Origin: a virus
Strand: one strand, 5' to 3'
Virus record (IMG/VR): IMGVR_UViG_3300001041_000009
Span: 54,480-118,479 of that record
Length of the DNA stretch: 64,000 bases
The notes beneath the pieces were generated by a model. It made no database searches and had not been told where the DNA came from. It worked only from the letters and a program-made list of their open reading frames with translations. Numbering within the stretch: position 1 is the first letter of the stretch; each line of letters starts with the position of its first letter. Below, piece by piece: positions 2,589-48,065 of this stretch. The translations under genes and the position numbers were made by a program.

Positions 2589-3832
2589 GTATATTTTCTA
2601 AATTCACATGTAGCATTTATAGTAAAGTCTTCACCTTGTTTATTAAAGACAATATGATTTTTACTAATACGATAATTACCACCATATTCGGTATTAATCT
2701 TTTGATTTTCAAATACAAATAAGAACTCTTTATTTGGTGTAATTACATCGGTATCAAAATCTCCTATACTGAGAGTTATAATTTTACTATTTTCACTTCT
2801 TTGTAATTTAGCCATAGAATTACAATATTCATTATTGTTCTTATTGACCATGACTTTGTATGTCCCATCTTTACGTTCAGTTGAATTTGTTCTTAGGTCA
2901 GTTGTAATACCAGTTTCTGGATTAATAATTAATAGATTATTACCTTCAGTCTGATCTGTAACAATTGAATGACTATGCATTTGTATAGTATTAGGAAGTA
3001 CATTTATAATAAATTTCTTATTAATATCATCCACATAACTTCCTGGAGTAAATACATCACTACTGATAGAATCTCGTATATTAAATACAGTTTGTGTATA
3101 TTCAGCTAATCTAAATGCTGTACACTTAACATTTAAATCAATAAAATACGTACATTCAACATCAAAGAATAATAATAATCCATTCTTATAAAATCCATAT
3201 GCTTGTTCTAAAGCCAATAATCCTCCTAAGAATGGTAGAGGAGGAAATATAACTTCTTCATATACAGTAGTATTGTCTAATGGAGTCATAAGAACTTCGA
3301 TGAAATGATTAATACCGAGCATATGCGTTAAAACATCAGTCATATTACAATTAGAAAATATCTTATTGTTTATACGCCTTGTATTAATAAGGTCCCATTC
3401 ATTAAATAAATAAAATGTAAATTCATTACTTAAATCTTTAGGAGTAGTCTCAGATTTCTCTACCTTCTTAGTTTCGTCATAAGTTGATTGACTCATAAAT
3501 GGTGTATCTTCATTTAAGTAAACTGAAAATATTCTATTGAACACATCGGTTTTAAATTGAAATTGATTACTTTTATCATATATAAACTTCTGTATTCTTA
3601 GTTTAAACCTAACACCTAATTTATTTTTTAATATATTAAAATATACTGTAGGTGTCAATATAGTAGATAATCGTATAATAGGATAGTAATCATCATCATA
3701 ATCACGTTCAATTGCAATATCAGTTATATGTTTAGGTTCTATAACTATTGGTACTGGATCATCGGGTAATAATATAACAAAAGATTCTACTATGTATTTA
3801 TAAAACTTCATATCAGTAGGCATATTATTCAT
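2582..3832 (-). CDS. Putative virion structural protein (tail or baseplate type)
   Basis: 416 residues. The start ATG has AAGGTGG about 10 nt upstream. The sequence is beta-rich with few charged helices. The N-terminal part (residues 30-60) contains ITDIAIERDYDDDYYP, a phrase typical of large-phage tail proteins that describe a spatially repeated beta domain. No enzymatic residues were found. A baseplate hub or tail-tube-associated role is an inference from this composition and from other virion genes in the window. Confidence 0.5.
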   Translation of the reverse strand: MNNMPTDMKFYKYIVESFVILLPDDPVPIVIEPKHITDIAIERDYDDDYYPIIRLSTILTPTVYFNILKNKLGVRFKLRIQKFIYDKSNQFQFKTDVFNRIFSVYLNEDTPFMSQSTYDETKKVEKSETTPKDLSNEFTFYLFNEWDLINTRRINNKIFSNCNMTDVLTHMLGINHFIEVLMTPLDNTTVYEEVIFPPLPFLGGLLALEQAYGFYKNGLLLFFDVECTYFIDLNVKCTAFRLAEYTQTVFNIRDSISSDVFTPGSYVDDINKKFIINVLPNTIQMHSHSIVTDQTEGNNLLIINPETGITTDLRTNSTERKDGTYKVMVNKNNNEYCNSMAKLQRSENSKIITLSIGDFDTDVITPNKEFLFVFENQKINTEYGGNYRISKNHIVFNKQGEDFTINATCEFRKYTE

Positions 3833-3890
3833 TTATAAATCATCCACCTTTATATTTATTATTATATATTTGTATACTAAGACAAAAAAA

Positions 3891-3922
3891 ATAAAGACTA
3901 AGCATGTAAGCTTAGTCTTTAT
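3891..3922 (-). terminator. Rho-independent terminator
   Basis: The stem ATAAAGACTAAGC / GCTTAGTCTTTAT is followed, reading the minus strand, by a T run. It ends the gene that stops at 3928. Confidence 0.85.
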
Positions 3923-4947: not shown

Positions 4948-6048
4948 TTATATAAATATATTTGTTTTACTTCGTTTAGTAATAAGTTTAGTAGCGGCTG
5001 TTAATTCCATCAGAGATAATGGGTTGTTAATAAAGTACTCATCATTTATCCTTTTTAATGATACATTATCAAATTTATCAATCACTTGTGATGTAATAGT
5101 ATATAAATCCTTTATATTTAATAATTGAAATTGGGTATCTAGATCTATACATTGGTAATTATTGAGTAGTAATTGTTTATACTCTTCCTTTATTATATTT
5201 GAAAGAATATTAATGTTATAAACATCTTTACCAATTATATTAATACTAATAGCTTTATTAACCATCTTAATGATAGTAGATAAACCTATACGTTTTAATT
5301 TCTCAATCGATCGATATTTATCTCCTAGTATAGATAATATAAATGGATAATATTGAGCATTGATATTCTTATCATTAACAATTTTACTTTCAAGTTTTAG
5401 TTCAGTAATAAGATTTTCTTTACTGATAACATAACTATCATCTCTTTTTGGTCTAATAATATAGAAGTTTTTACATGCATATTGATAATCGTACTTATCT
5501 GTAGTTACAATGAAATTAATATATTCCTCATCTGAACCTTTCGTTATTATGTGAGGTATGAGAGATGATTCTATACCATCACCTTGAATGAGATATACAC
5601 CCTCCACGTACTCTAATATGATTTTAGTGAAGGGTATGGATTCGTTTAATACTGAATTTAATACAAAATTATTTGGATCGCCTGAATACTTATGTTGATA
5701 ATAAGATCTATACTCAGGTAATACTATATGATTTTTATAATGCTTAGTAGATGGATTTCCTGTATAAATATAAACCTTTGAATATACCTTATTCTTTGTG
5801 AAGAAGAGTCTATAATGTGCAGCTAGATTAATTATATTGCTTATTAACTCAAACGATCTGTCTTCTTTAACTTTTAAATATTGATCTATACTAGAACTAG
5901 ATAACTTATTAATAACTGATTCTAGATTAATAAATATATTAAACTTAGATGTATTACCAATATGAGAACAATGTTTATCCATTAATTCGTCCAGCTTTTT
6001 AAATTTGACTTTAAACATATTAAAGATAATATCCAAGGGAATCACCAA
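4948..6048 (-). CDS. Hypothetical protein with weak PIN/FEN-nuclease-like features
   Basis: About 365 residues from the TTG at 6048 or GTG at 6045; the SD is only a weak AGGGGCGG. I see FINLES near the N-terminus, VEGVYLIQGDGIESSLIPH and VTTDKYDYQ in the middle, then ILGDKYRSIEKLKRIG followed by helices. This order loosely recalls 5'-3' exonuclease / flap nuclease proteins (acidic clusters, then a GDK...GIG helix-hairpin-helix). That is only a resemblance; the acidic cluster is incomplete. It sits 6 nt downstream of the PC4-like gene, so a nucleic-acid role would fit. Confidence 0.5.
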   Translation of the reverse strand: MVIPLDIIFNMFKVKFKKLDELMDKHCSHIGNTSKFNIFINLESVINKLSSSSIDQYLKVKEDRSFELISNIINLAAHYRLFFTKNKVYSKVYIYTGNPSTKHYKNHIVLPEYRSYYQHKYSGDPNNFVLNSVLNESIPFTKIILEYVEGVYLIQGDGIESSLIPHIITKGSDEEYINFIVTTDKYDYQYACKNFYIIRPKRDDSYVISKENLITELKLESKIVNDKNINAQYYPFILSILGDKYRSIEKLKRIGLSTIIKMVNKAISINIIGKDVYNINILSNIIKEEYKQLLLNNYQCIDLDTQFQLLNIKDLYTITSQVIDKFDNVSLKRINDEYFINNPLSLMELTAATKLITKRSKTNIFI

Positions 6049-6054
6049 CCGCCC

Positions 6055-6414
6055 CTATTGTTTTATTTCGATCACGTAATTCTCATCTGTATTAAGATAT
6101 GTATTATTATTTGTAGTTATAGTAAACCGATTCCTCTTTTTAGCTACAGCTTTCTCAAGTAATTCCAATGATCCATAATCATTTTCTAATAATAAATCAA
6201 TCAATTTGTCGACTTCTTCATCAGTTAAACTAATACCTTTACCTGCTCTATGATCAGATAAATTCATACTACGTATATCTAAGGATGGTGGTTTATCATT
6301 CCAGGCAATACGCGCAACCAGTTTACACCAGTCGTGCTGATCACTCTCTTTTAAAGATCCAATAAATTCAACTATTTCAAATTTAATTTTTTCAGGTTTT
6401 TCTTTCTTTGCCAT
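6055..6414 (-). CDS. PC4/YdbC-like single-stranded DNA-binding protein
   Basis: 119 residues. Residues about 10-80 match the bacterial YdbC branch of the PC4 fold: KFEIVEFIGSL, then WNDKPPSLDIRSMN and GKGISLTDEEVDKLIDLL. YdbC proteins are known homodimeric ssDNA binders related to eukaryotic PC4. The C-terminal 35 residues are an extra polar extension. It is co-directional and nearly contiguous with the following gene. A role in replication, recombination or transcription of phage DNA is inferred. Confidence 0.75.
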   Translation of the reverse strand: MAKKEKPEKIKFEIVEFIGSLKESDQHDWCKLVARIAWNDKPPSLDIRSMNLSDHRAGKGISLTDEEVDKLIDLLLENDYGSLELLEKAVAKKRNRFTITTNNNTYLNTDENYVIEIKQ

Positions 6415-6482: not shown

Positions 6483-7073
6483 TTAATCTTCGATACGGGA
6501 AATAATATTTTGAAGTTTATCAAGGCCGCCAGAATCTTCCCGATCTAAGAACTTGTTTGTTTTGATCACAGTTAAGATACTATCCCGTTTCTTAATCCGG
6601 GCGATTTCAGAAATTGTAATCGCTTGGCTTCTTGGATCGACGGCAAACATTATGCCGATAACTTTGAAGATACTACATTTGAAGTAAATGACATGTTCTC
6701 TTGGATTCGAGTTGATCTTGAAATCTCTGCAAATAGGCTGCATTGCCTCTTTTAACTCAGGGGAAATTTGATAATTTCCCTCTTCCATTCGACTGGCAAG
6801 GGCCGAGGAAATTTTATGCATTCCGGTATTAACATCCCTGGACTTATCATCAATAAATACGTATAATGACATTTCTGGACGAGCTGATCCGTCGCGGACA
6901 ACATTAGTCCGTACACCTGAAACACGATCAATTTTACATGTATCTACCAGATAGCTGTATAGGAATTCCTCTACTGCGGACCCGGTTATGTTATAGACAA
7001 CACCAACTGGATCGATCTCGACATTTGTTTCGAGTAAATTGTTTGATTTCTTTAAAGTTTGATTTACACTCAT
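6483..7073 (-). CDS. Abundant-type protein of unknown function with biased codon use
   Basis: 196 residues, starting after a good AGGAGG. Its codons use far more G and C than neighbouring genes (CGC, GCC, ATC, CCG are frequent), as in the major capsid gene, which suggests high expression. Content is mixed alpha/beta (VSGVRTNVVRDGSARPEMSL, KCSIFKVIGIMFAVDP). No family recognised. It has its own terminator and an early-type promoter motif upstream on the minus strand, so it is probably a monocistronic, strongly expressed early or structural protein. Confidence 0.65.
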   Translation of the reverse strand: MSVNQTLKKSNNLLETNVEIDPVGVVYNITGSAVEEFLYSYLVDTCKIDRVSGVRTNVVRDGSARPEMSLYVFIDDKSRDVNTGMHKISSALASRMEEGNYQISPELKEAMQPICRDFKINSNPREHVIYFKCSIFKVIGIMFAVDPRSQAITISEIARIKKRDSILTVIKTNKFLDREDSGGLDKLQNIISRIED

Positions 7074-7162: not shown

Positions 7163-8041
7163 TTATCTTTTTACACGTTCGTAATCCTCCTTTATAAGTT
7201 TAATTATTATAATTCCCCAGTCGGAATTACTACAGTATATAGGATTTATTTCAGATATACATATAGTCCCATTATCAATATAACGTGTCTTTATGGTTTT
7301 ACCAAAAGAATGTACTGAATCCGATTTTGATTTATAACTATATGCAGAAGCATATGCGTCACCATCCAAGGCATTCATACCGAATAAATTATTCTTATCT
7401 CTAGCAATAGGTGAAGTGCCATTACCACTTTCTAAACGAGCAACTGCTAATGTAAAGAAACCATTAATCTTATATTTATCTTCAACATCAAGTATTGATT
7501 TCTCAATTCCTTCTAATTCAGTATCTTTAAGTAATAACCTTAAATCGTTAATAGTTAGATTTGATCGGGTCCGTATGTCTAAAGTTGTGGAACGTATAAA
7601 ATCTAAAGGTAACGATCCTCTAGATATCACGTACTTCTTAATGTTTTCATTATATTTATTTATAGTTATTAAGTAGTCAGAATGAATAAATCCATCCTTA
7701 GTCTGATACCATGTTTCCGACTTATTAATAACTTCAAGTTTTTGATCTCTAACATATTGAGTAATCTTTTCGGATTCAATAGACGGTGCACTACGTACAT
7801 TGAGGATATCAGTATCAACATAATAAAACTCACTAATTAGTACGGGTTCGGTAATTTTAGGTTCATCCACTTGTGCTATAGTTTGGATTTCAGTAGGTGC
7901 ATTGTTTTGAGTAGTGGACGGGGACGATATATTATTTGTATTATACCTAAATGATAAAAATATTAAAGATGTGAGAATAATATATGTTATAGTCATTAAA
8001 GTTATTTCAATAGATTTATTTGTTTTAATCCTTTTTAACAT
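7163..8041 (-). CDS. Membrane-anchored SH3b + N-acetylglucosaminidase (lysin-type)
   Basis: 292 residues. Residues about 12-34 are a single hydrophobic anchor. A Thr/Ser/Pro-rich linker is followed by a bacterial SH3 domain at about 72-128 (YVDTDILNVRSAPS). Residues about 180-290 form a LytG/FlgJ-type glucosaminidase domain with the catalytic Glu in ARLESGNGTS, followed by NNLFGMNA. It should cleave the glycan strand of peptidoglycan. The N-terminal anchor suggests insertion in the host membrane with the enzyme outside, or a signal-anchor-release endolysin. The SD AAAGGAG precedes the ATG. Confidence 0.85.
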   Translation of the reverse strand: MLKRIKTNKSIEITLMTITYIILTSLIFLSFRYNTNNISSPSTTQNNAPTEIQTIAQVDEPKITEPVLISEFYYVDTDILNVRSAPSIESEKITQYVRDQKLEVINKSETWYQTKDGFIHSDYLITINKYNENIKKYVISRGSLPLDFIRSTTLDIRTRSNLTINDLRLLLKDTELEGIEKSILDVEDKYKINGFFTLAVARLESGNGTSPIARDKNNLFGMNALDGDAYASAYSYKSKSDSVHSFGKTIKTRYIDNGTICISEINPIYCSNSDWGIIIIKLIKEDYERVKR

Positions 8042-16284: not shown

Positions 16285-16659
16285 ATGGAAAACGATATGA
16301 TCATTATATTCAATCAATTAACAAAGTCTGAATTGTCAGACTGTTCTCTATTTGAAAACATCTTGAATTATCATTATGAGAAATTTAAATTCTTTTATTC
16401 ATTAATAAGAAATCTATGTTTAAAAAATGTAGAGAAGATAATCTGTAATGAACAGACTGATAAACTTCTAATATATATACATTTTAAAACAAAACCATTA
16501 TTAAATAATTTCAATAAGACATTAAAAACAGAATTGGGTTCTAATACTTACATTCACGCTAAATATTTTACTCTAGATGTCATTAAGAGTTCAAACAAAA
16601 TAGATATTTCTATAATGAATAAAAATATTTCCGAGGAGCAAGAAATATATGAAGATTGA
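16285..16659 (+). CDS. Hypothetical protein upstream of beta' N-half
   Basis: 124 residues from ATG 16285, with AAGGGGGAG 5 nt upstream. No recognised family; mixed helices and short strands. Its stop lies 11 nt inside the next gene, so the two are translationally coupled. A baseplate or assembly function would fit the operon, but nothing in the sequence says so. Confidence 0.55.
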   Translation: MENDMIIIFNQLTKSELSDCSLFENILNYHYEKFKFFYSLIRNLCLKNVEKIICNEQTDKLLIYIHFKTKPLLNNFNKTLKTELGSNTYIHAKYFTLDVIKSSNKIDISIMNKNISEEQEIYED

Positions 16660-17373
16660 TTTAATACCAATTAAGAAGTTTATTCAAGTTAATTCATTAC
16701 AAGAAATCACTGAAATCATAATATTTGAAAAAGGTAGTATACCAACATCTGGTGGTTTACTATCTACAAATATATTCGGTGTATCTGTTAATGAACGACG
16801 AGAAACTTATGCTTATATTAAACTAAATGGGCACTTCTTACACCCATTTGTTTATAAGTTATTAAAACGTATGAATAGAAATTTTCAATCTATTGTATAT
16901 GGATCAAAGAATTTTATAATAGATAAAAATGGACAATTGGTTGAAGCTGAGGAATCTGGTGAGACTGGATTAGAATTCTTATATAAAAATTGGGAAAAAA
17001 TAAACTTTGAAAAGAATGCCAGTTCTATACGTAGTGAAAGAATTGACTTGCTGAGATCGTATGATAAAGATACTTTATTTACTGAGTACTGGATTGTAGT
17101 GCCAGCATTCTATCGTGATGTTAATTTACAATCAGCAACACAGGGTAAGATTAGTCATCATGAGATCAATGATAAGTACGCTAAATTATTAAGATTCGCA
17201 ACTGTGTTGAGGAACTCCAATAATTTTGATTTTGTACTTAATGGAACTAGGGCTAAGGTTCAGGAAGTCTTAGTAGAAATTTATGATTTGCTCAAAGGTA
17301 GAATAGAAAAGAAGAATGGATTAATTAGAAAAAATTTAATGGGTAAATCGGTTGATTTCGGATCGAGGAGTGT
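16649..17373 (+). CDS. RNA polymerase beta' subunit, N-terminal half, exon 1
   Basis: First of four exons (16649-17373, 17671-18358, 19468-19476, 19732-19899) that together encode 529 residues. The exon ends in LMGKSVDFGSRSV, the counterpart of bacterial LMGKRVDYSGRSV in the beta' clamp/active-centre lead-in. The protein is the N-terminal half of a bacterial-type beta' that phiKZ/AR9-like phages encode as separate polypeptides. It forms the catalytic Mg-binding side of a phage multisubunit RNA polymerase. Exon 1 ends after AGTGT (two bases of a Val codon). Without splicing the frame ends at 17398. Confidence 0.9.
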
Positions 17374-17670
17374 GGATTTACTGCACGTAGCTCCTTAATT
17401 GTCGGGAATCTCCTTAGAACTTAAACCACTTAAAGTAACAATGTTTAAGTTTGGACAATCCGCAGCCAAGATTCTATCTAATAGAATAAGGTTCAACGAC
17501 TATCACACGGAAATATGGTTATATTAATTTACCGTGAGTTAGATACATTATTGTATTGAAATGGGAGTTCAGGAATTCTTAATTTCCTGAAGATATAGTC
17601 TAGTATCCTAATGAAAATTAGGGAAGTTCATGAGAGAACTGTATAGAGTTATATTCTATATGAATAAACG
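17374..17670 (+). ncRNA. Group I self-splicing intron 1 of beta' N-half
   Basis: 297 nt. P1 pairs exon GTGT with intron GCAC, ending in a U-G pair. Core segments typical of group I are GTCGGGAATCTCC, GACAATCCGCAGCCAAG, GGTTCAACGACTA and AGATATAGTC. The intron ends with G at 17670. Joining 17373 to 17671 gives SVISAPIF, in register with beta' proteins. It has no endonuclease gene. Confidence 0.9.
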
Positions 17671-18358
17671 AATTTCTGCACCTATATTCAAAGCAAATAA
17701 ACCATCTGAGATGCAAATAGATTTTTATCATGTTGGTATTCCTCTTGCACAAACATGTTCATTATTTACACCATTTATAATAAATTGGGTTAAAAATTTC
17801 TTCCATAGAGAATTAGAGAAGGTTGGTAATAAGTATCCTGTAAGAAATCCGGACGGTTCCATGGGATATGTGAAATTAAAAGATCCCTCATTATATTTCA
17901 ACGAAGAATATCTTAAAAAACAAATTGATAGATTCATATTTAGTGTATCCGATAGATTTACACCAATTGAACTTCCCGTCGAGGAACCTAGATCTGATGG
18001 GAAGAAATTATATATGCGATTTATAGGAAAAGATTATAAACCAGGGGTTCCTGAAACTGAATCTCCCTTAGTACAAAGGAAGGCAACTTGGTGTGATATT
18101 TTATATCAAGCGGCAGTTGATGTTACATCAGATAAAATGGTATTCGTTACGAGATATCCTATTTCAGATTATTTCAGTAGCTTTCCTAACAAAATATCAG
18201 TCCTAAGTACCCACCAAACTATACCGATGTTTATTGGAAATAGAGTCTATACGAATTATCCTAGGATCGATCTTAGTTTACCTAAAGAAGAAATATCCAC
18301 TCTATTTGCAGATACTGTGAGTATGTCAAATTTATATCTACCTGGTTTAAACGGAGAT
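17671..18358 (+). CDS. RNA polymerase beta' subunit, N-terminal half, exon 2
   Basis: 688 nt. It starts ISAPIFK and ends at LPGLNGD, the first Asp of the catalytic NADFDGD motif (here N-G-D-Y-D-G-D once spliced). It covers the stretch of beta' that leads into the active centre (LFTPFIINWV corresponds to the LFKPFI region). The reading frame closes 12 codons into intron 2, so unspliced RNA gives a protein lacking the catalytic loop. Confidence 0.9.
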
Positions 18359-19467
18359 AAAAGTTGTTGTCTCCCTTTGCTAGAAATAGCTTAGTTAAAA
18401 ATCCTGTGAACGCTTAACAGGCGGTGTATGGGTATCACAATACTCATGCTAACGGTAGAAGTGAAATAAGCATTGACGAATAAGCTTCGTAAGAGAACCT
18501 AAGGTCCTGAAATATGGATAGCTGGAAATACCGTGTCAAGCTTTAATTGATTTACGAAATTCATATATTGTAAAAAAATACTTTTATACTAACTTATATA
18601 TAATAAGGGGGGTTATTATGTATAATGATGATCTAATAATTGAATCGAAAAAACATTTTGGTGTAATATATATGTTGAGAAATAATATAGATGGTAAAAT
18701 TTATATTGGTCAGACAATAAATCTACATTCACGACTTAAGGATTATAAGTATAAAAAGCTTAATAGGAAATCGAATTTATATCATATTATAAAAATAGTT
18801 AATGAATATGGATTTAATAATTTTGATTGCAGTATAATAGACACATGCACCTCTAAAAATGAAATGAACGAAAAAGAGGTATATTGGATATCAACTTTAA
18901 AAGCAAATGATCCTAATATTGGATATAATAAGAAAACAGGTGGGGTCGGTGGAACTATGAATAGTGAGTCTAAATATAAGATGAGTGAAAGTACAAAATT
19001 ATTTAGACATTCTGAACAAACTAAACGAGATAAATCTAAACCTATAATTGCATTTAAAGATGGGTTATTTCATATATTCCAAGGAGCGAAGTCATTTGCT
19101 GATTCAATAGATAGTAATAAAAGTTCTGTAACTCATGCGGTTCGATTTGGACGTATTATTCAAGGATATTTTGTATTCTATTGTGATAAAAATTCCCGTA
19201 ATGAAATATTGATTAAAATAGAGTCTAAACTAAATGATACACCCAAAATAAAAACCCCCATGTTAAAATTACAATATGTGAAAATATGTAAATTAATTAG
19301 AGAAGATGTAGAGACTAACGAAAATTACTATCATATAATTATATAGTAGTTAGTAGTGTACTGACTAATTTGTGGGTTAGTTGGGAAGTGCAGGACACCT
19401 AATTAATAATTTATTATTATACGGTGAAGATATAGTCCATGCCATATGAAAATATGGAGTTTACATG
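18359..19467 (+). ncRNA. Group I intron 2 of beta' N-half, carrying a GIY-YIG endonuclease gene
   Basis: 1109 nt. P1 is GGAGAT (exon) with GTCTCC (intron), five Watson-Crick pairs plus U-G, with a 10-nt loop. The core differs from the common family in this window (AATCCTGTGAACGC, GGATAGCTGGAAATACCGTG), so it is a separate group I lineage. P7 GGTGAAGATATAGTCC is near the 3' end. The endonuclease gene sits in a peripheral loop. The 3' end is the G at 19467. Confidence 0.85.
18618..19346 (+). CDS. Intron-encoded GIY-YIG homing endonuclease
   Basis: 242 residues with SD AGGGGGG. Residues 8-35 hold the GIY-YIG block (GVIYMLRNN, KIYIGQT), then the conserved Arg in SRLKDY and the metal-binding Glu in NEKEVYWI at about residue 90. 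The C-terminal half carries DNA-contacting modules, including a NUMOD1/IENR1-like segment (FQGAKSFADSIDSNKSSVTH). It should nick or cut the intron-less DxDGD site of beta' genes to move its intron. It is the only endonuclease among the six beta' introns seen here. Confidence 0.9.
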   Translation: MYNDDLIIESKKHFGVIYMLRNNIDGKIYIGQTINLHSRLKDYKYKKLNRKSNLYHIIKIVNEYGFNNFDCSIIDTCTSKNEMNEKEVYWISTLKANDPNIGYNKKTGGVGGTMNSESKYKMSESTKLFRHSEQTKRDKSKPIIAFKDGLFHIFQGAKSFADSIDSNKSSVTHAVRFGRIIQGYFVFYCDKNSRNEILIKIESKLNDTPKIKTPMLKLQYVKICKLIREDVETNENYYHIII

Positions 19468-19476
19468 TACGACGGT
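19468..19476 (+). CDS. RNA polymerase beta' N-half, 9-nt micro-exon (Y-D-G)
   Basis: TACGACGGT encodes Tyr-Asp-Gly, the middle of the catalytic N-G-D-Y-D-G-D loop. It is bounded upstream by intron 2 (ending ACATG) and downstream by intron 3, whose P1 pairs ACGGT with GCCGT. Only with this exon does the spliced product carry all three Mg-chelating Asp residues (exon 2 Asp, micro-exon Asp, exon 4 Asp). Confidence 0.85.
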
Positions 19477-19731
19477 CATTGTATTGCCGTATTTTCCTTA
19501 ACTGTCGGGAAACTCCTTATAGCTTCTTTAATGGAAGATTGGACAATCCGCAGCCAAGTCTCTTATATAAGAGAAAGGTTCAACGACTAGAAGTAATTCG
19601 TAGATATAGTTATATATCGAAATGGGAAAACAATAGATTTATTCTATTGAAGAGATAGTCTAATATCCTATATTAATATAGGGAAGTTCATAAGAGAACT
19701 GTATGGATTAAATATCTATATGAATATTTTG
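19477..19731 (+). ncRNA. Group I intron 3 of beta' N-half
   Basis: 255 nt, of the common family: TGTCGGGAAACTCC, GACAATCCGCAGCCAAG, GGTTCAACGACTA, GAGATAGTC and the terminal GTTCATAAGAGAAC hairpin. It ends with G at 19731. P1 uses the micro-exon and therefore depends on that 9-nt exon for 5' splice-site recognition. No endonuclease gene. Confidence 0.88.
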
Positions 19732-19899
19732 GATCAGGTTACAGTAAAGGGTTTATTTAGTCAAGAAGCTAATAAAGAAGCTATTGAAATTATGACATCT
19801 AAAGCTCATATTCTAAATATCGCTGGTAGTAATATGAGAAAGACAACCAATGAGGGTGTTCATACACTATATATGATGACACGTTTCGAAAATGATTAA
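19732..19899 (+). CDS. RNA polymerase beta' N-half, exon 4 (C-terminus)
   Basis: 168 nt. It starts D-Q-V-T-V, completing DYDGDQ, and continues through EANKEAIEIMTSKAHILN to LYMMTRFEND and stop. This matches bacterial beta' from GDQMAVHVPL to the LGLYYMTR region, where phiKZ/AR9-type polymerases also break beta'. The remainder of beta' is encoded at 45244-48065. Confidence 0.88.
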   Translation, partial: DQVTVKGLFSQEANKEAIEIMTSKAHILNIAGSNMRKTTNEGVHTLYMMTRFEND

Positions 19900-26282: not shown

Positions 26283-26420
26283 TAGTACTTGTTAGATACC
26301 ACAATAACTTAACCGTTAAGGTTCTTTAAACCGTCCGACCAACGGCGAAATCTCTATTTACGTTAGTTAATAAAGATCCTTTAAATGACTTATAAATATT
26401 AATAGAAGCATTGTTATCCC
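26270..26420 (-). ncRNA. Predicted omega RNA / right end of TnpB element
   Basis: Sequence after and overlapping the tnpB 3' end is conserved with the remnant at 34951-35100: hairpins GAACCTTAACGGTT and CCGTTGGTCGGACGG, ending CTAACACGACAGGA. In IS605-type systems this is the scaffold of the guide RNA, and the flanking 16-20 nt beyond the end (here reading ATGGAGATATTGTATT on the minus strand) form the guide. Confidence 0.5.
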
Positions 26421-27558
26421 TACCATCTATATGTCCGCATATTGGACAATTAAAGATTCTTTGAGATAACTTTAACTTAGTTTTAAGTTTATGATTACAT
26501 TCAGAGCATGTAATGGTACTATTAGGTAATGCTAAAATATATTCACTACCATAAAAGTGACATTTATATTTTAACACCTGTGTAAACATAAAGTCACCAA
26601 CTCTGTGTATACCTCTATTTATACGCGTATTACCATCGGACTCTGTTAATAACTCTTTAAAACTAAACTCATCAACTATTACGTTTCTATAAGTCTTAGC
26701 TAAGAATGTAGATACCTTCTGAATATAATCCATTCTGATATTCACTATTTTGACGTGAATATCATTAAGTTTGGTTCTCGCTTTTATATAGTTCTTTGAT
26801 GGGTTACGTTTATCATACTTCTTTTTAGAAACTATTACTGAGAGTTTATCAACTTTCTTCTCTAGTTTCTTAATAATTCCCTTCGGAAATTTAGGATTTA
26901 TGATATCGTTTCCATCAAAACAAACTACTGGATTATGTATTCCTAAATCTATACCTACCATATTTTTCTTATGTTTATGCTTTGGGATATCTATTTCATA
27001 AGTGAATGATACATAATATTTAAAATTCTTCATACTAATAGTCATTGTTTTTATATCATAGTGATATAAAAAGCTTATATCTTCAAAAGTTTTCAATGGC
27101 ATGTGACCGTATTCTCTATTAATAATAAAAGAGAATAACTTCTTATCAATAATTTTAACATTACCTTTATTCGTCTTGTATATTCTAAAAGAACCATTTC
27201 CATGAATCTTTCTTTTAAAATGTAATTTACATCGTTTCTTGTCTTTAATATCTTTAAAGAACTTATTAATAGCTATATTAAAATCACTAGCCACTTCATT
27301 CTTTATTGACTTATTATACTCTTGAGTCCATTCAAATCCCGGTTCCTTTTCTTTCTTAGAGTATATATGAGTAATATAATCAAACTTATCAAAGAACTTC
27401 TTTAATGTTTTATCAATAATATTACCATTATGCTCTAAAAGGGTATTAAAATATTCTAAAGCATTATTGTATATGAATCTTCTATATCCAAAGCATTTGT
27501 TTAAATATATCTCTTGTTCTTTAGTTGGTCGTATTCTCGTTTTAAAAGTCTTAATCAT
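26326..27558 (-). CDS. tnpB: TnpB RNA-guided nuclease (IS605 OrfB family)
   Basis: 410 residues with SD AAAGGGGGTGA. N-terminal helical/HTH part MIKTFKTRIRPTKEQE, RuvC-I Asp in GIDLGIHNPVV (about 202), RuvC-II Glu in VDEFSFKELL (about 300), a four-Cys zinc ribbon (CSEC...CPIC) at about 350-372, and RuvC-III Asp in GRDNNASIN. All catalytic residues are present. It should cut DNA at sites set by its omega RNA, favouring element retention. It is closely related to the TnpB in the terminase IStron at 62856. Confidence 0.9.
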   Translation of the reverse strand: MIKTFKTRIRPTKEQEIYLNKCFGYRRFIYNNALEYFNTLLEHNGNIIDKTLKKFFDKFDYITHIYSKKEKEPGFEWTQEYNKSIKNEVASDFNIAINKFFKDIKDKKRCKLHFKRKIHGNGSFRIYKTNKGNVKIIDKKLFSFIINREYGHMPLKTFEDISFLYHYDIKTMTISMKNFKYYVSFTYEIDIPKHKHKKNMVGIDLGIHNPVVCFDGNDIINPKFPKGIIKKLEKKVDKLSVIVSKKKYDKRNPSKNYIKARTKLNDIHVKIVNIRMDYIQKVSTFLAKTYRNVIVDEFSFKELLTESDGNTRINRGIHRVGDFMFTQVLKYKCHFYGSEYILALPNSTITCSECNHKLKTKLKLSQRIFNCPICGHIDGRDNNASINIYKSFKGSLLTNVNRDFAVGRTV

Positions 27559-27681
27559 TTATCTTCACCCCCTTTCTTATATTATTTGTTATAAGTATAA
27601 TAATATCTTATTAGGAATGAATTATTAAGACTACTGATTAAGTTATTTCTCTAAGTTTCCTTAAAGCACAGACTATATAAC

Positions 27682-29895: not shown

Positions 29896-30168
29896 CTTTA
29901 TATTCATATAGATTATAACTCTATACAGTTCTCTTATGAACTTCCCTAAATTACTTTAGGATAATAGACTATATCTTCTTCATAATATTATGAAGTTTCT
30001 CCACTTCGATTTAGTTATAAATCTACGAGTCACACTCTAGTCGTTGAACCTTATTCTTGTATTAAGAATCTTGGTTGCGGATTGTCCAATCTTAAACATT
30101 ATTACTTATAGTAGTTTAAGCTATAAGGAAGTTCCCGTCAGTTAAGAGAAAACCGGCTTCTATAAAAA
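29896..30168 (-). ncRNA. Group I intron 2 of the unknown protein gene
   Basis: 273 nt on the minus strand, common family: CTGACGGGAACTTCC, GACAATCCGCAACCAAG, GGTTCAACGACTA, AGATATAGTC, GTTCATAAGAGAAC. P1 pairs exon CGGT with intron GCCG. The last base is G. Joining gives KKDLDG-LSGLDK in frame. No endonuclease gene. Confidence 0.87.
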
Positions 30169-30256
30169 ACCGTCGAGATCTTTTTTATTGTTTAACTCAA
30201 TTAATGAGAATTCATAAGGTTCTCGTATGAAGTAACCAAGCTGTTTTTCTAAGCAT
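30169..30256 (-). CDS. Intron-split unknown protein, exon 2 (88 nt)
   Basis: 88 nt encoding C-L-E-K-Q-L-G-Y-F-I-R-E-P-Y-E-F and on to L-D-G between two group I introns. The frame is restored with both neighbours (one base completes the Val codon left by exon 1). Confidence 0.8.
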
Positions 30257-30531
30257 CGTGTTCACATAGGTTGTTAATCTATGCAGTTCTCTTATGAACT
30301 TCCCTATAGTTATATAGGATATAAGACTATATCTTCTCATCTTAATTAAGATGAGTTTTCTTATTTCAATCTAAACTATAGATCTACGAGTCACACTCTA
30401 GTCGTTGAACCTTATTCTTATATAAGAATCTTGGCTGCGGATTATCCAATCTTAAACATTATTACGATTAAGTAGTTTAAGCTATAAGGAACTTCCCGTC
30501 AGTTAAAGAAAAGGTGGCATTAGATTATTTT
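30257..30531 (-). ncRNA. Group I intron 1 of the unknown protein gene
   Basis: 275 nt on the minus strand. P1 pairs exon GTGGT with intron GCCAC. The core segments CTGACGGGAAGTTCC, GGATAATCCGCAGCCAAG, GGTTCAACGACTA and AGATATAGTC are present. It ends in G before ATGCTTAG. No endonuclease gene. Confidence 0.87.
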
Positions 30532-37780: not shown

Positions 37781-38485
37781 TTAATCATGTTCATGGATTA
37801 TAACATCCGATGGGAGATTAATTTTAATAAGATACCTATCTTTGAAATATCCGGGTGGTTTCAAAAGCATAGTACTTGGGAATCCTTTACGTAAGCGCCC
37901 ACTAAAAGTTCCCTTATTTATACCATATTGCTTCGCCCACATACCCATAGTTTTCGTTACTCCATTAATCGTTATGTGCACATTACTTCTAGTATTATTA
38001 TTTTGCTCGGACGAAGTTGACCAACGACAATTAGATGGCTCGTAGTTACCATCATTATTGATTCGATCGATTGATAAATTAGATTGATAACCGCTTCTCA
38101 TAGCCCATTCAATAAACGTTTTTAATCCAGTCTTTTCATCTAACCATTCATCACAAATTTTAATTCCTCTACCACCATAATTTTTATATGATATGGTTGA
38201 AGTCTTTAAACAACGACTCTTCATACCATATAATATACCATATAATCTATTGTAGCTAAAACCATGCTTAGTGTTACTTTTTAAAATACTAACTTTTCGC
38301 ACACATCCACAATTGGTAGATATTCCTCGAACTAAACTATTAGAGCTAACATATCTTCGAGTTTTATCAGAACAACTACATTCACATAAAAATGAAGTTC
38401 TCTTTAAATAGTTTATTAACATTGGAGAATCAACTATTGTCCATAATCCAAATTTTTCTCCAGGTTTAATATCCAAACGCCTCAT
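37781..38485 (-). CDS. Free-standing HNH homing endonuclease
   Basis: 234 residues. N-terminal Cys-containing region (FGLWTIVDSP, CECSCSDK, GCVRK), then the HNH core: YKNYGGRGIKICDEW, LSIDRINNDGNYEPSNCRWS and the EQNNNTRSN tail, as in phage HNH/AP2-type endonucleases. A C-terminal helix-turn-helix (MGMWAKQYGINKGTFSGRL) should contact DNA. It sits between the DNA polymerase and the radical SAM gene and is probably a selfish insertion. Confidence 0.88.
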   Translation of the reverse strand: MRRLDIKPGEKFGLWTIVDSPMLINYLKRTSFLCECSCSDKTRRYVSSNSLVRGISTNCGCVRKVSILKSNTKHGFSYNRLYGILYGMKSRCLKTSTISYKNYGGRGIKICDEWLDEKTGLKTFIEWAMRSGYQSNLSIDRINNDGNYEPSNCRWSTSSEQNNNTRSNVHITINGVTKTMGMWAKQYGINKGTFSGRLRKGFPSTMLLKPPGYFKDRYLIKINLPSDVIIHEHD

Positions 38486-38497
38486 TTATATACACCC

Positions 38498-40432
38498 CTA
38501 AATCTTTAAAATATTAGAAAAATACTCATATCTGGATGTCTTAATAGTTTCTAATTGAAGAGACTCAAGAATACTGGTAAATCTTGACAGATTATCATTC
38601 ACAATAGTATCGACATCAATAAACACCCTCAACCAATCTGGAATATTTGGAAATGAACGTGGGATAGCAAATGCCTGTACACCTTTTTCTGAAATAGCTT
38701 TTTCCGGATTATTAAATACCCTTTCTAAGAAAATATTATAATAATCTTCATTCACCCCTTTTAGTTTTTCTAATTCAGACAGTGTGCCAAGTTTTACTTT
38801 AACAATGTCTAATTTCTCAGGTAACTGAATCTCCATATCCGGGTAAATGTAATTAAATGCTATAACCGCCCTAAAACCCGTTTCCCTGAATGGGAATTTA
38901 TATGCAGAAAACGATTTAACGGACTTTGGCAATAGAAAGTCTTTCTCACCATTAATAAGAGATGTTCTTACAATATCCTCGAATCTTTCCAACTCTCTTA
39001 ATATTTCAGATATATTGATATCTGGACTATCTATCATTTTAGTTTTAACCAAATTAGTAAAAAATACTTTAGTGGCTTCCCTTGTAGTAGACTTCATAAA
39101 GTCATGTCCTGAAATAGCAGTACGTGGTGGAAATATCTCAACTCCTTCACGGAGTCGTATATTAGTTACGTAGCGCTTTTTTTTAGGTGCTAGGATAACT
39201 CGTATTTGGAAAAACTCATTTTTCATATTAATTTTAGGTCGGTATTTTTTAGGCACATGTGAATATTTACAATACCTAGCTAAAACTAAAGTTATCATTT
39301 CTGTCATAAAATAACACATTATATTGATAATAATAAATTTCATTTGATCGGGATCTTTATTAAATAATTTAGTATTATTCATAACAATATTACTCTGTAT
39401 TGCAATAAACCATGGATTTAAATGAATGAAATTTGAGTCGGTGTCTATAACTAGTACACTCTTACGAACATCGTTCTTCAATCTTTGAATTCTATCAAAA
39501 GCAAAATGGTTGTAAAAAACAAATTGCCCATAATAATCCCAGAGTTCTTTTAAATCAGATTTAATAATATCTGGTACTTTACTTGGATTTTTAAACTCAT
39601 CCACTTTTAACATAACTGAAGTTAACATATTATTTATCTTTCTTAGACTAGAAAATTCATATAAGTTATTCTTAAAATATATTCTATTAATATCTCTCTG
39701 ATTTAGGTTTAATATATAACAGAATAGTATATCCTCATATGAATCTTTATAATCCTGGAAATTTGATTTTAATCTCTTTATTAATAACTCTACTGATATA
39801 TTAGGTAGGAATCTATCATCTAAAACTTTCTTCTCATGAATAATATTCTCCATGAAATTCATGCAATCATCTAAGTCTATAAATGTTACATTATTAGTTA
39901 AGAACGCTTCATAGGCTAACTCTGTTGTAGATATTATAGATTGGCCAGTAGATGTTGTACTACTGGCCGTATAGAGGTTGAAGAAGTTTGATTTTCGGTT
40001 CCCGGAACAGCCATAGAAGGAATTTGCGTTGATTTTCTCAGTTCCCTGAAGCCTATCAAATGTGGCATACTCATATGATTTCCTGTCAAATTCTTTAAGT
40101 TTGTCCTTATATGATTTTCTTAAAGTTAGGAAATTATCCAACATTACTGCTGAGGGATTGAGTTCTTGATCCTGATTCTTAAAGAATACTCCAAATCCAG
40201 CAGCTATAGGTTTAGTTCTGTCATACCAATCAATTAAAGTAAGTAAATCAACGTCTATCTCCTTATGGTTATAGTTATTATGAATTTTTCCTTTTGGACT
40301 AACTGCTCTTTCCGAAGCAATGCTTTTAATGAATTTACTAAGTTCCTTCTCGTTTAAATCAGGGTACATGGTAGAGAATATAGATACATAATGATTTTTC
40401 CAATCAGTTAGAAATTTACCTTGTTTACTCAT
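38498..40432 (-). CDS. Family B DNA polymerase, C-terminal (palm/fingers/thumb) half
   Basis: 644 residues. Motif B KINANSFYGCSG at 133-144 (counterpart of KLxxNSxYGxxG) and motif C VIDTDS at 328-333 (YGDTDS type, catalytic Asp). The 3'-5' exonuclease domain and motif A (SLYPS with its Asp) are absent; the protein begins just after where motif A would be. The polymerase active site must therefore be completed by another polypeptide encoded elsewhere. It is the last gene of a coupled three-gene operon. Confidence 0.85.
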   Translation of the reverse strand: MSKQGKFLTDWKNHYVSIFSTMYPDLNEKELSKFIKSIASERAVSPKGKIHNNYNHKEIDVDLLTLIDWYDRTKPIAAGFGVFFKNQDQELNPSAVMLDNFLTLRKSYKDKLKEFDRKSYEYATFDRLQGTEKINANSFYGCSGNRKSNFFNLYTASSTTSTGQSIISTTELAYEAFLTNNVTFIDLDDCMNFMENIIHEKKVLDDRFLPNISVELLIKRLKSNFQDYKDSYEDILFCYILNLNQRDINRIYFKNNLYEFSSLRKINNMLTSVMLKVDEFKNPSKVPDIIKSDLKELWDYYGQFVFYNHFAFDRIQRLKNDVRKSVLVIDTDSNFIHLNPWFIAIQSNIVMNNTKLFNKDPDQMKFIIINIMCYFMTEMITLVLARYCKYSHVPKKYRPKINMKNEFFQIRVILAPKKKRYVTNIRLREGVEIFPPRTAISGHDFMKSTTREATKVFFTNLVKTKMIDSPDINISEILRELERFEDIVRTSLINGEKDFLLPKSVKSFSAYKFPFRETGFRAVIAFNYIYPDMEIQLPEKLDIVKVKLGTLSELEKLKGVNEDYYNIFLERVFNNPEKAISEKGVQAFAIPRSFPNIPDWLRVFIDVDTIVNDNLSRFTSILESLQLETIKTSRYEYFSNILKI

Positions 40433-45200: not shown

Positions 45201-45243
45201 AATAATAGAAAAAACAGTATTATAAAAGAAGGAGGTCATATTT

Positions 45244-46049
45244 TTGGATTCGGATGTAGGAAAAATAATCAGTGAGCTATCCAATAAGATCTTTATTATC
45301 TCAAACTTAATGGCTACTAAGAAGGACTACAAAGCTAATCTAGAGTTGTTCTATGATTATTTAAAACGAGGGTTTGAAGTTAAGGAGTTGAGAACATGCC
45401 CAGTGTATTTTAAATTTTCAGATAAAGAAGGAGAACAAATTCATACTCTCCAATTAAGACATTTCTTAACAAATTATATGTTTTGGTCACCGATGATGAA
45501 GTTGGGTTATATTGATAGATTGAATGAATCTTATATAGTTGATTGTAGTAAGATATCGGCAGATTATATCAAATCATATGTTGATAGAAAGATAGTTTTA
45601 CCATTTAGAAAGATTATCAGTAATACTAAAATGAATAAAGTAATTGCAGATATGATCCACAATCTATCTAGAATATCAACTGACTTTAATATGATATTGG
45701 GGTTATCAATTAATATTGAGACGTTTATTGACGTAAGCGAACGTATACCTAGATTTAACGAAATCATACGAACGGTTATTCCAGACGGACTTCAACCTAC
45801 GGAAATAGAATCATTACTAGATGATCTAATGCATGAGCAAGTTGCCATTTTAGAAAATGATCCTGTTGGAAATATGCTACAGCCAATACTAAAATCTGGT
45901 GCTGGGATTAAACATAAACAGTTAGCAGAGTTCGCAATTAGTGGGGGGCTGAAGCCGGATCTTTCTGGAAATACAATCCCCCATCCGATCAATAGTAACT
46001 TCATAGTAGGGGGATTATCCAACATCACTAATTACTATATTGACTCCCT
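45244..46049 (+). CDS. RNA polymerase beta' subunit, C-terminal half, exon 1
   Basis: First of four exons (45244-46049, 46329-46364, 46644-46662, 46938-48065) encoding 662 residues. Start TTG has AGAAGGAGGT upstream. The exon's end matches the bacterial beta' region before the bridge helix and trigger loop: MLQPILKSGAGIKHKQLAEF, NTIPHPINSNFIVGGLS, YYIDSL (counterpart of NFREGLNVLQYFISTHG). It ends after TCCCT with two bases of a Leu codon. The partner N-half is at 16649-19899. Confidence 0.9.
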
Positions 46050-46328
46050 AAAACAACTTGGGGCGGCATAGGTGGACTTATGTTGTAAAACTATTTTAAT
46101 TGACGGGAAACTCCTTAGAACTTCTAATTGAAGATTGGACAATCCGCAGCCAAGATTCTTATATAAGAATAAGGTTCAACGACTAGAGCGTGACTCGTAG
46201 ATATAAAGTTATATCGAAATTAATGGAATCTTCTATATAGAAGATTGTGATATAGTCTTGTATCCTAATAAATATTAGGGAAGTTCATAAGAGAACTGCA
46301 TGGATTAACGACCTATGTGAAAGTATCG
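46050..46328 (+). ncRNA. Group I intron 1 of beta' C-half
   Basis: 279 nt, common family. P1 pairs exon CCCT with intron GGGG over a 10-nt loop. Core: TTGACGGGAAACTCC, GACAATCCGCAGCCAAG, GGTTCAACGACTA, GATATAGTC, GTTCATAAGAGAAC. Ends with G at 46328. Joining gives YYIDSLGGRKSL, aligned with the trigger-loop entry GARKGL. Confidence 0.88.
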
Positions 46329-46364
46329 TGGTGGAAGAAAATCATTAATTATGAATAAACTGGT
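46329..46364 (+). CDS. RNA polymerase beta' C-half, exon 2 (36 nt, trigger loop)
   Basis: 36 nt encoding G-G-R-K-S-L-I-M-N-K-L plus partial codons on both sides. It corresponds to [11 protein letters not shown] of bacterial beta', the N-terminal arm of the trigger loop. Confidence 0.85.
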
Positions 46365-46643
46365 TAATTTTTAGCCATTTCTCTTTTAATTGACGGGAAG
46401 TTCCTTACTGCTTAAACTACTAATGTAATAATGTTTAAGATTGGATAATCCGCAGCCAAGTCTCTTTATAATAAGAGAAAGGTTCAACGACTAATTTAGA
46501 GCTCAAAGTGAGTGGGTGTGAAAACTCTTAAATCGAAATGGAGAGACTCATTTAATTAAATGAGAAGAGATAGTCTGGTATCCTATAGAAATATAGGGAG
46601 TTCTTTGTGGACTACATTATGTAACGAATAATGTCAACTTACG
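46365..46643 (+). ncRNA. Group I intron 2 of beta' C-half
   Basis: 279 nt. P1 pairs exon TGGT with intron GCCA. Core: TTGACGGGAAGTTCC, GGATAATCCGCAGCCAAG, GGTTCAACGACTA, GAGATAGTC. The 3' hairpin region (GGAGTTCTTTGTGGACTAC) is diverged. Ends with G at 46643. No endonuclease gene. Confidence 0.87.
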
Positions 46644-46662
46644 TATGGGTAGATCTGGCCAT
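46644..46662 (+). CDS. RNA polymerase beta' C-half, exon 3 (19 nt, trigger loop)
   Basis: 19 nt: one base completing Val, then M-G-R-S-G-H. It aligns with KTANSGY at the tip of the trigger loop, where bacterial beta' has the catalytic trigger helix. Confidence 0.85.
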
Positions 46663-46937
46663 CAATTACAGGTGGCATTATATAGTAATATATAATGAGA
46701 AAATTTCTTTAATTGACGGGGAACTCCTTAGAACTTCTTAATTGAAGATTGGACGATCCGCAGCCAATACTCTTACTAAGAGAAAGGTTCAACGACTAGA
46801 GTAAAAGCTCGTAAGTTTATAGTTAAACTGAAATAAGAATCATCCATCATTGGATGGTGATATAGTCTTGTATCCTATATAGTTATAGGGAAGTTCATTA
46901 GAGAACTGTATGGATTTACGATCTATATGAAAATACG
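46663..46937 (+). ncRNA. Group I intron 3 of beta' C-half
   Basis: 275 nt. P1 pairs exon GCCAT with intron GTGGC (four Watson-Crick pairs and U-G). Core: TTGACGGGGAACTCC, GACGATCCGCAGCCAA, GGTTCAACGACTA, GATATAGTC, GTTCATTAGAGAAC. Ends with G at 46937. Joining gives SGH-FARLVMLL, aligned with [12 protein letters not shown]. Confidence 0.88.
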
Positions 46938-48065
46938 TTTGCACGATTAGTAATGCTTTTAACATCAGGAATAAAATTAAGTCCTACTGTTAAAACATGT
47001 AATAGCATTCATTCAATTCAATACGAAATCAAAACTAAAGAGCATTTAAGACGATTACAGGGAAGATATTATCGTCTTGAGAATACTAGAGATTATAACG
47101 TCATTGAAGGTCATGAGGAAAATATTGTTGGTAAAACTATCTATGTTAAATCTCCAGCAACTTGTTCAGCTAAAGATGGAATATGTTGGCATTGTTATGG
47201 GCAACTATATCATACCAATAAAGGTATCTCTATTGGTGGATATGCTGGATCAAGAATAACAGAACCTGTATCTCAGAGAGTATTATCAACTAAACACCTA
47301 CTAACAACAGTTTCGGAAAAGATAGAATTCAATGCTGATTTCTATAAGTTTTTCACTATTAATGCAAATGAAATTCTTCTTAATATAACTAATGACGACA
47401 TTAACTTAAATGATTATTCTTTAGTTATTATTAATAAAAATATTATTAGTATTAATGAATATGATGATACTGATTTCAATACATTTGTAACTATATTCCA
47501 TGTTAAACATAAAAAATCTGGTGAGATTATAGAATGTATGGAATTGAATCAGAAAGACTTATATATATCTCCAGATATAGTTGAGTTAATGAATAAGAGT
47601 AAATCTCATAAAGACGCTTATGAAATTGACTTTGCTAAAATTGATGATGATTCTAAGATATTCGTATTAGAAATTGAGAATAACGAATTGACACGTCCTC
47701 TTTATAACATCATGTATTTACTTAATAGAAGTGATCATGTTGGATGTAGATCTGTTGATGAGTTATGTCAAAAGATGTTAGATCTATTAATCGAATCTAA
47801 AATTGATTCAGATGCGGTTCATGGTGAATTGTTGATACACCCTCTATTAAGACACAGTAAGGATATCTTATATAGACCGGATTTCAGTAAGTATGGTGAA
47901 AAAGCTGAGTATCAAATAATGACTGTTGAATCCGCATTAGAAAAACATCCTTCTGTCTTAATAGGTTTATCCTTCCAGGCATTAGGACGACAACTTATTA
48001 ATCCATTAACATTTAAAAAGAGAGAAGCTTCTTATATAGATTCTTTCTTTAAATCCAGACCATAA
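46938..48065 (+). CDS. RNA polymerase beta' subunit, C-terminal half, exon 4
   Basis: 1128 nt. It begins F-A-R-L-V-M-L-L-T (trigger-loop exit). It carries CSAKDGICWHCYG, the zinc-binding CxxCYG of beta' (with C upstream), then GISIGGYAGSRITEPVSQR, corresponding to GEAIGVIAAQSIGEPGTQL. The C-terminal ~200 residues cover the clamp end (FQALGRQLINPLTF). A Met at 46953 is not the real start. Confidence 0.9.
   Translation, partial: FARLVMLLTSGIKLSPTVKTCNSIHSIQYEIKTKEHLRRLQGRYYRLENTRDYNVIEGHEENIVGKTIYVKSPATCSAKDGICWHCYGQLYHTNKGISIGGYAGSRITEPVSQRVLSTKHLLTTVSEKIEFNADFYKFFTINANEILLNITNDDINLNDYSLVIINKNIISINEYDDTDFNTFVTIFHVKHKKSGEIIECMELNQKDLYISPDIVELMNKSKSHKDAYEIDFAKIDDDSKIFVLEIENNELTRPLYNIMYLLNRSDHVGCRSVDELCQKMLDLLIESKIDSDAVHGELLIHPLLRHSKDILYRPDFSKYGEKAEYQIMTVESALEKHPSVLIGLSFQALGRQLINPLTFKKREASYIDSFFKSRP

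Follow-up and report, generated by a model that had tools for sequence, protein, structure and literature searches.

A 9-nt micro-exon between two predicted group I introns in the catalytic loop of a jumbo-phage RNA polymerase beta' gene

A phage RNA polymerase (RNAP) beta' gene is interrupted by three introns, the last two of which enclose an exon of nine bases that encodes the middle of the DxDGD loop, the catalytic motif that all multisubunit RNA polymerases conserve. We consider it very probable that this gene was invaded three times and that introns 2 and 3, being independent of each other, splice so as to leave the micro-exon in the mRNA.

Structure of the beta' gene

The window, i.e. 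the whole stretch of 64,000 nt analysed here, corresponds to bases 54480-118479 of virus record IMGVR_UViG_3300001041_000009, which totals 118479 bases. Judged by similarity, its locus 16649-19899 is the gene for the N-terminal, DxDGD-bearing beta' subunit of a multisubunit RNAP of the AR9/phiKZ kind, that is, of the jumbo-phage virion type. The family profile of beta' matches the solved AR9 and bacterial beta' chains, and blastn of the region against phages gave nothing but short core matches. The gene is composed as follows, a slash marking the point of insertion.

16649..17373, + strand: exon 1, from alignment to the intronless beta' of Goe21, BpSp and LPJP1
17374..17670, + strand: group I intron 1, 297 nt, without ORF, at SRSV/IS (RF00028, 65.7 bits; spliced frame fits relatives)
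17671..18358, + strand: exon 2, last residues N-G-D with the first catalytic Asp (frame, relatives)
18353..18358, + strand: 5' strand of intron 2 P1, GGAGAT, pairing with GTCTCC at 18369-18374 (L033 has the same IGS at the same site)
18359..19467, + strand: intron 2, 1109 nt, terminal G, at D/YDGD (P1, P10, P7 GACTA with TAGTC, homologues with covariation)
18363..18367, + strand: intron 2 P10 strand GTTGT, pairing with micro-exon bases 19469-19473
18618..19346, + strand: ORF for a predicted GIY-YIG homing endonuclease within intron 2 (Pfam PF01541, 45.8 bits, E=7.8e-12)
19468..19476, + strand: 9-nt micro-exon TACGACGGT, Y-D-G, with the second catalytic Asp (frame, P1 and P10, relatives)
19477..19731, + strand: group I intron 3, 255 nt, without ORF, terminal G, at DYDG/D (RF00028)
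19732..19899, + strand: exon 4, starting with GATCAG, third catalytic Asp first, through the stop codon (tblastn with Goe21 beta', relatives)

The end points of intron 1, which has a P1 of only 4 bp, were set from the reading frame. Joining the four exons (16649-17373, 17671-18358, 19468-19476 and 19732-19899) yields one frame of 529 aa. Exon 2 ends in ...AACGGAGAT at 18358 (N-G-D), the loop of the predicted spliced protein is N-G-D-Y-D-G-D-Q, and the end of the product reads ...LYLPGLNGDYDGDQVTVKGLFSQEANKEA.... D471 is the last residue of exon 2, D473 the middle one of exon 3 and D475 the first of exon 4; an earlier, sequence-only reading of this DNA had indeed assigned each Mg-binding Asp to a different exon. 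The micro-exon which it proposed turned out to be exact to the base, as judged from the frame, the pairings and the intronless relatives with Y-D-G, and its introns of 1109 nt (GIY-YIG) and 255 nt were recovered at 18359-19467 and 19477-19731. Its spliced frame agrees with ours, and needs in addition the removal of intron 1 (17374-17670), about which it says nothing.

The alignment to phage beta' proteins that it had suggested as a check was carried out with the uninterrupted homologues of the Bacillus phages BpSp and Goe21 and the Listeria phage LPJP1, and the 529 aa fit them at 37-39% identity over 99% of the length (BpSp, 39% over 99% of the spliced beta'), the profile fitting AR9. Environmental intronless relatives (L022-L024) are 71-74% identical and have the loop GGDYDGDQVT unbroken, and the nearest intronless relatives hold exactly Y-D-G between both flanking Asp. 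Contig IMGVR_UViG_3300025000_000391, assembled from another metagenome, has the same structure, micro-exon included, and is 99.9% identical over 8.7 kb of the window, the sole difference being 9 nt within intron 1; an assembly artefact was rejected on this ground.

Splice-site pairings and predicted course of splicing

Both P1 helices claimed in the sequence-only reading were found, each with a U.G pair at the junction. That of intron 2 comprises 6 bp (GGAGAU with GUCUCC), and that of intron 3 comprises 5 bp (ACGGU, micro-exon bases 5-9, with GCCGU; IGS at 19486-19490), with ViennaRNA duplex energies of -7.0 and -5.7 kcal/mol, respectively. The P10 of intron 2 joins micro-exon bases 2-6 (ACGAC) to GUUGU immediately 5' of the guide, in 5 bp that follow one U.U mismatch, and the P10 of intron 3 has only 3 bp; both features weigh against the splicing model. 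In the 1373-nt interval, one G stands directly before TAYGAYGGT with a P1 of 5 bp or more behind it, against 0.0005 such cases per shuffle in 2000 dinucleotide shuffles of that interval.

Each intron is predicted to be self-splicing with guanosine and would remove itself by the ordinary two-step, guanosine-initiated reaction. Intron 2 would recognise exon 2 via GGAGAU and GUCUCC and its 3' exon via the 5-bp P10 on micro-exon bases 2-6, and intron 3 would recognise micro-exon bases 5-9 via ACGGU and GCCGU. Since bases 5 and 6 are common to the P10 of intron 2 and the P1 of intron 3, the two helices exclude each other at any one moment and the steps must be sequential, the helices acting in turn. 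Removal of the introns in either order keeps the frame, and it is reasonable that intron 2 would leave without damage to the 5' splice site of intron 3. We infer that both introns splice in vivo, that they do so sequentially, that the strength of P10 limits skipping of the micro-exon, and that the arrangement goes back to two independent invasions, the loop being a recurrent target of several intron families.

A single composite intron, or twintron, was considered and rejected, as P1 and 3' end are separate for the two introns and either insertion is found singly in other phages.

Group I status of the introns

The covariance-model search with RF00028 that had been proposed for both loop introns identified one of them with confidence: intron 3 matches the full-length model at 69.8 bits (E=1.1e-15; cut-off 50), and intron 1 is likewise above the cut-off, whereas intron 2 reaches 25.6 bits (E=0.00037), below 50 and with its 3' half only. 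The core of intron 2 is interrupted by the GIY-YIG ORF, which matches PF01541 above the Pfam cut-off of 22.6 bits and for which close relatives, when searched, were found in the same phage only. Its ORF-less homologue L033 scores 27.7 bits (E=3.4e-5), also below 50, so the ORF is not the sole reason for the weak score; the intron 2 family simply lies far from the Rfam model. It should be added that the Rfam group I model lacks some subgroups (PMC11878797).

Core segments of intron 2 homologues (12 for the 5' and 9 for the 3' segment; L033, L064, L124 and L135 are among the homologues) share helices, including P7 GACUA with UAGUC. Two-sided changes support 21 base pairs in the 5' and 20 in the 3' segment, the segments being aligned by sequence and the structure derived with RNAalifold without a shuffle control. 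Given its P1, P10, terminal G and P7 and the covarying core pairs of the homologues, we read intron 2 as a group I intron, an assignment with good support that stays below the Rfam level.

The loop as a recurrent insertion target

Across 80 related loci and the named phages, six codon boundaries of the loop, GG/D/Y/D/G/D/Q, carry an intron in one locus or another; several of the loci listed come from near-identical copies of one phage:

GG/DYDGD: L038, L039
D/YDGD: intron 2 of the window; L033-L037
DY/DGD: L047-L053
DYD/GD: L031; AR9
D[Y/F]DG/D: intron 3 of the window; L090, phiR1-37, Madawaska, MarsHill
DYDGD/Q: L064

The convergence of introns on the same few codons is therefore stronger than the sequence-only reading had claimed. 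Single insertions are found at D/YDGD in L033-L037 and at DFDG/D in phiR1-37, Madawaska, MarsHill and L090. Most junctions are backed by P1 and P10; a simple scan for P1 made out none in AR9, Madawaska, phiR1-37 and L090. All loop junctions are phase 0, as would be expected if the required 5'-exon-terminal U sits on synonymous third positions. The L033 intron, without ORF, shares the site and IGS of intron 2 and has a 7-bp P10. L064 carries a homologue of intron 2, complete with the ORF, at a position 12 nt further downstream; the insertion there follows GGCGAT, which nearly repeats the GGAGAT that serves intron 2.

In phiR1-37 (L011 4001-6979), g178 is annotated to end just past DFDG, and the C-terminal exon that it lacks (DTFRLIGLFSDEANREAERIM...) follows ORF g179, at 6824-6979. 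Evidently, g178 is an intron-split gene that is not annotated as such.

The twin arrangement at other loci

A DNA-pattern scan for relatives of intron 2 revealed two further loci with twin introns around a 9-nt exon, L124/L128 and L135. In L124, GGTGGGGAT is followed by a 375-nt ORF-less intron of family 2, that of intron 2, then by TATGATGGT, a 327-nt family-1 intron and GATCAAGTA, the predicted spliced sequence being GLGGDYDGDQVSLKVLFSQEAN; L128 is identical to L124 over the compared sequence. L135 is a second, nvRNAP-type (paralogous) beta' gene with the layout AACGCGGAT, a 1033-nt family-2 intron with a GIY-YIG-like ORF, TTCGACGGC, a 272-nt family-1 intron and GATATATTG, which would splice to LNADFDGDILNII. 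The same architecture thus exists at two other loci, one of which, a paralogous RNAP, is probably located in the same phage.

The canonical rules do not hold for every copy: the L124 family-2 intron (3535-3909) would end in A rather than the usual G, a 6-bp P10 with TATGAT, read by eye, fixing its 3' exon, and the L135 micro-exon ends in C instead of the U before the 5' splice site. The terminal C of L135 is perhaps accommodated by a C.A wobble replacing U.G.

Intron lineages and their spread

At the DNA level introns 2 and 3 are not significantly similar, which bears out the earlier assignment to different lineages. The identity of intron 3 amounts to 69% with intron 1, to 79.7% over 231 nt with a trigger-loop intron in another gene of the same record, and to 88% over 207 nt with one that interrupts a different gene on contig G007, whereas introns at the same DG/D site in other phages are barely alignable with intron 3 (best E 0.011). 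The idea that intron 3 is an old resident of its site was rejected on this contrast, other introns of the genome matching it at 76-88%. With its closest relatives in other genes and not at the same site, intron 3 most likely derives from an ORF-less family spreading within the phage lineage, which may travel by homing in trans or by reverse splicing.

We tentatively suggest, as a possibility with clearly less than even chances, that the ORF-less family-1 introns multiply at the RNA level, by reverse splicing guided by an internal guide sequence of 4-6 nt, and that the resulting insertions make the micro-exons of a phage whose group I introns would number roughly 35-40. If so, introns could settle only a few bases away from others, at points where the tens of bp that a homing endonuclease needs as its target are gone, and both RNA polymerases would depend on exact splicing of 9-nt exons.

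Alternative explanations

Exon skipping as the main outcome, in which intron 2, the micro-exon and intron 3 leave as a unit and an inactive or regulatory N-G-D-D-Q product results, is highly improbable in our estimation. It has precedents in tandem phage group I introns (Twort orf142, SIOphi; PMC11878797), and loss of a 9-nt exon stays in frame; yet the product would be without one universally conserved catalytic Asp, and the coding sequence of the micro-exon is kept in three separate twin loci. Furthermore, the P10 strand of intron 2 gives -3.0 kcal/mol with the micro-exon and +0.8 kcal/mol with exon 4 (ViennaRNA), so poor pairing with exon 4 argues that retention should beat skipping. Marginally less credible still is a decaying pseudogene with loop introns that are no longer spliced. 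Such a state would suit the heavy intron load and the weak canonical signals of some copies (the A end in L124, the -1 C in L135), but all exons are open and fit relatives over 529 aa, intron cores and P1 are intact, the second assembly differs over 8.7 kb inside intron 1 only, and a virion RNAP is expected to be essential from general knowledge of jumbo-phage RNAPs.

A further explanation addresses how the arrangement arose and could hold alongside the splicing model: the GIY-YIG enzyme would cut empty DxDGD loops, and repair would copy intron 2, the micro-exon and intron 3 together as a cassette. The same pair of families surrounds a 9-nt exon in three loci, including the paralogous RNAP, and both introns would lie, by general knowledge, inside any usual co-conversion tract. 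Nevertheless, the copies of intron 3 in these loci do not resemble one another most: intron 3 itself finds its best match in another gene (88%), and the L135 copy in a further intron of the genome. This kinship speaks against a co-mobile cassette, as does the occupation of the intron 2 site without partner in L033, and we regard joint transfer as unlikely, although less so than skipping or decay. The preferred reading remains that of independent introns, both spliced, with the micro-exon retained.

Other introns, micro-exons and the probable second genome piece

The record (G000) carries about 15 or more introns; one RF00028 search gave 16 matches at E<=0.001, some of them halves of one intron, and missed intron 3. 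Within the middle beta' gene (45226-48065, + strand), three group I introns lie in the trigger loop:

46050..46328, + strand: trigger-loop group I intron a, 279 nt (RF00028, junction)
46329..46364, + strand: 36-nt micro-exon, trigger loop GGRKSLIMNKL (spliced product fits L103, L104 and L106)
46365..46643, + strand: trigger-loop group I intron b, 279 nt (RF00028, junction)
46644..46662, + strand: 19-nt micro-exon, MGRSGH (spliced product fits relatives)
46663..46937, + strand: trigger-loop group I intron c, 275 nt (RF00028, junction)

Its spliced trigger loop, IDSLGGRKSLIMNKLVMGRSGHFARLVMLL, agrees with relatives. The beta gene, elsewhere on the record and interrupted by about six introns, has a 20-nt exon GATAGTACAAGAACTGCGAT (L019 5368-5387) within a conserved motif, flanked by group I introns of 775 and 288 nt (L019 4593-5675, G000 about 18592-19674); a 147-aa ORF lies on the opposite strand inside a beta-gene intron (L019 4714-5157, -). 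Two further tandem family-1 group I introns occur at 29900-30512 (-) of the window.

Contig G007, which bears L135, has 22 RF00028 matches in 100 kb, with more closely spaced group I introns, and likely short exons, at 38115-38666, 5406-6383 and 7164-7779. On the 218-kb relative G002, G000 and G007 map to halves that complement each other (5-98 kb and 98-200 kb), so that they probably belong to a single genome, as its two pieces, or to sister genomes. A repeated element is common to their ends, but its identity of only 85% does not amount to proof. The element, at 26411-27678 and 62520-64000 of the window, is about 85-87% identical to the start of G007 and may have broken the assembly between the two. 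With a view to a possible phage nucleus, in which splicing could precede translation, the chimallin profiles phrog_4795 and PF25677 were compared with the record, the probable second piece and three relatives and had no match; as AR9 and Goe21 gave none either, the result speaks neither for nor against such a link.

No RF00028 intron was detected in relatives G001-G003, and G005 and G006 have 14 or more matches each; among close relatives the load ranges from none detected in 160-230 kb up to 16 or more matches in 118 kb, which allows its cost and spread to be compared between phages.

Implications and comparison with known systems

In this phage lineage the DxDGD motif would arise only by joining three exons, one of them of nine bases. 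The loop introns form a natural series for the study of ribozyme choice between adjacent splice sites, of minimum intron spacing and of family spread. Gene callers will present such RNAP genes in truncated form, for which the phiR1-37 record is an example.

The same gene, virion RNAP beta', has two group I introns in AR9 (g145) and PBS1. One of those of AR9 lies in the same loop (DYD/GD) with an intron-encoded endonuclease; unlike in the window, it is single there and isolates no micro-exon. The beta' introns of phiR1-37 (g178/g179), Madawaska and MarsHill occupy exactly the intron 3 site (DFDG/D), are hardly alignable with intron 3, and have no companion at D/YDGD. In PhiPA3 gp210, a group I intron with an endonuclease lies by conserved Asp residues of a jumbo-phage vRNAP beta gene (PMC11620839), in contrast to the window a beta subunit, an HNH enzyme and a single intron. 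The phage genes Twort orf142 and SIOphi TerL/phiNIT1 are, like ours, split by several group I introns, with a small exon and exon skipping described (PMC11878797); that any of their exons cuts a catalytic loop is not reported. The phage papers searched described no exon as short as 9 nt, and no paper was returned when full texts, in a literature of incomplete coverage, were searched for group I introns together with microexon and bacteriophage.

Outside phages, a 1-nt micro-exon lies between two group IB introns in placozoan mitochondrial cox1, with RNA-seq support (PMC5436844), and a possible one of 18 nt between group I introns in Ophiostoma cob, likewise mitochondrial (PMC12308204). As in the window, the placozoan micro-exon is isolated by two group I introns; that case is mitochondrial and outside a catalytic polymerase motif, whereas ours is a phage gene with 9 nt between two unrelated intron families. 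Micro-exons between group I introns are thus already known.
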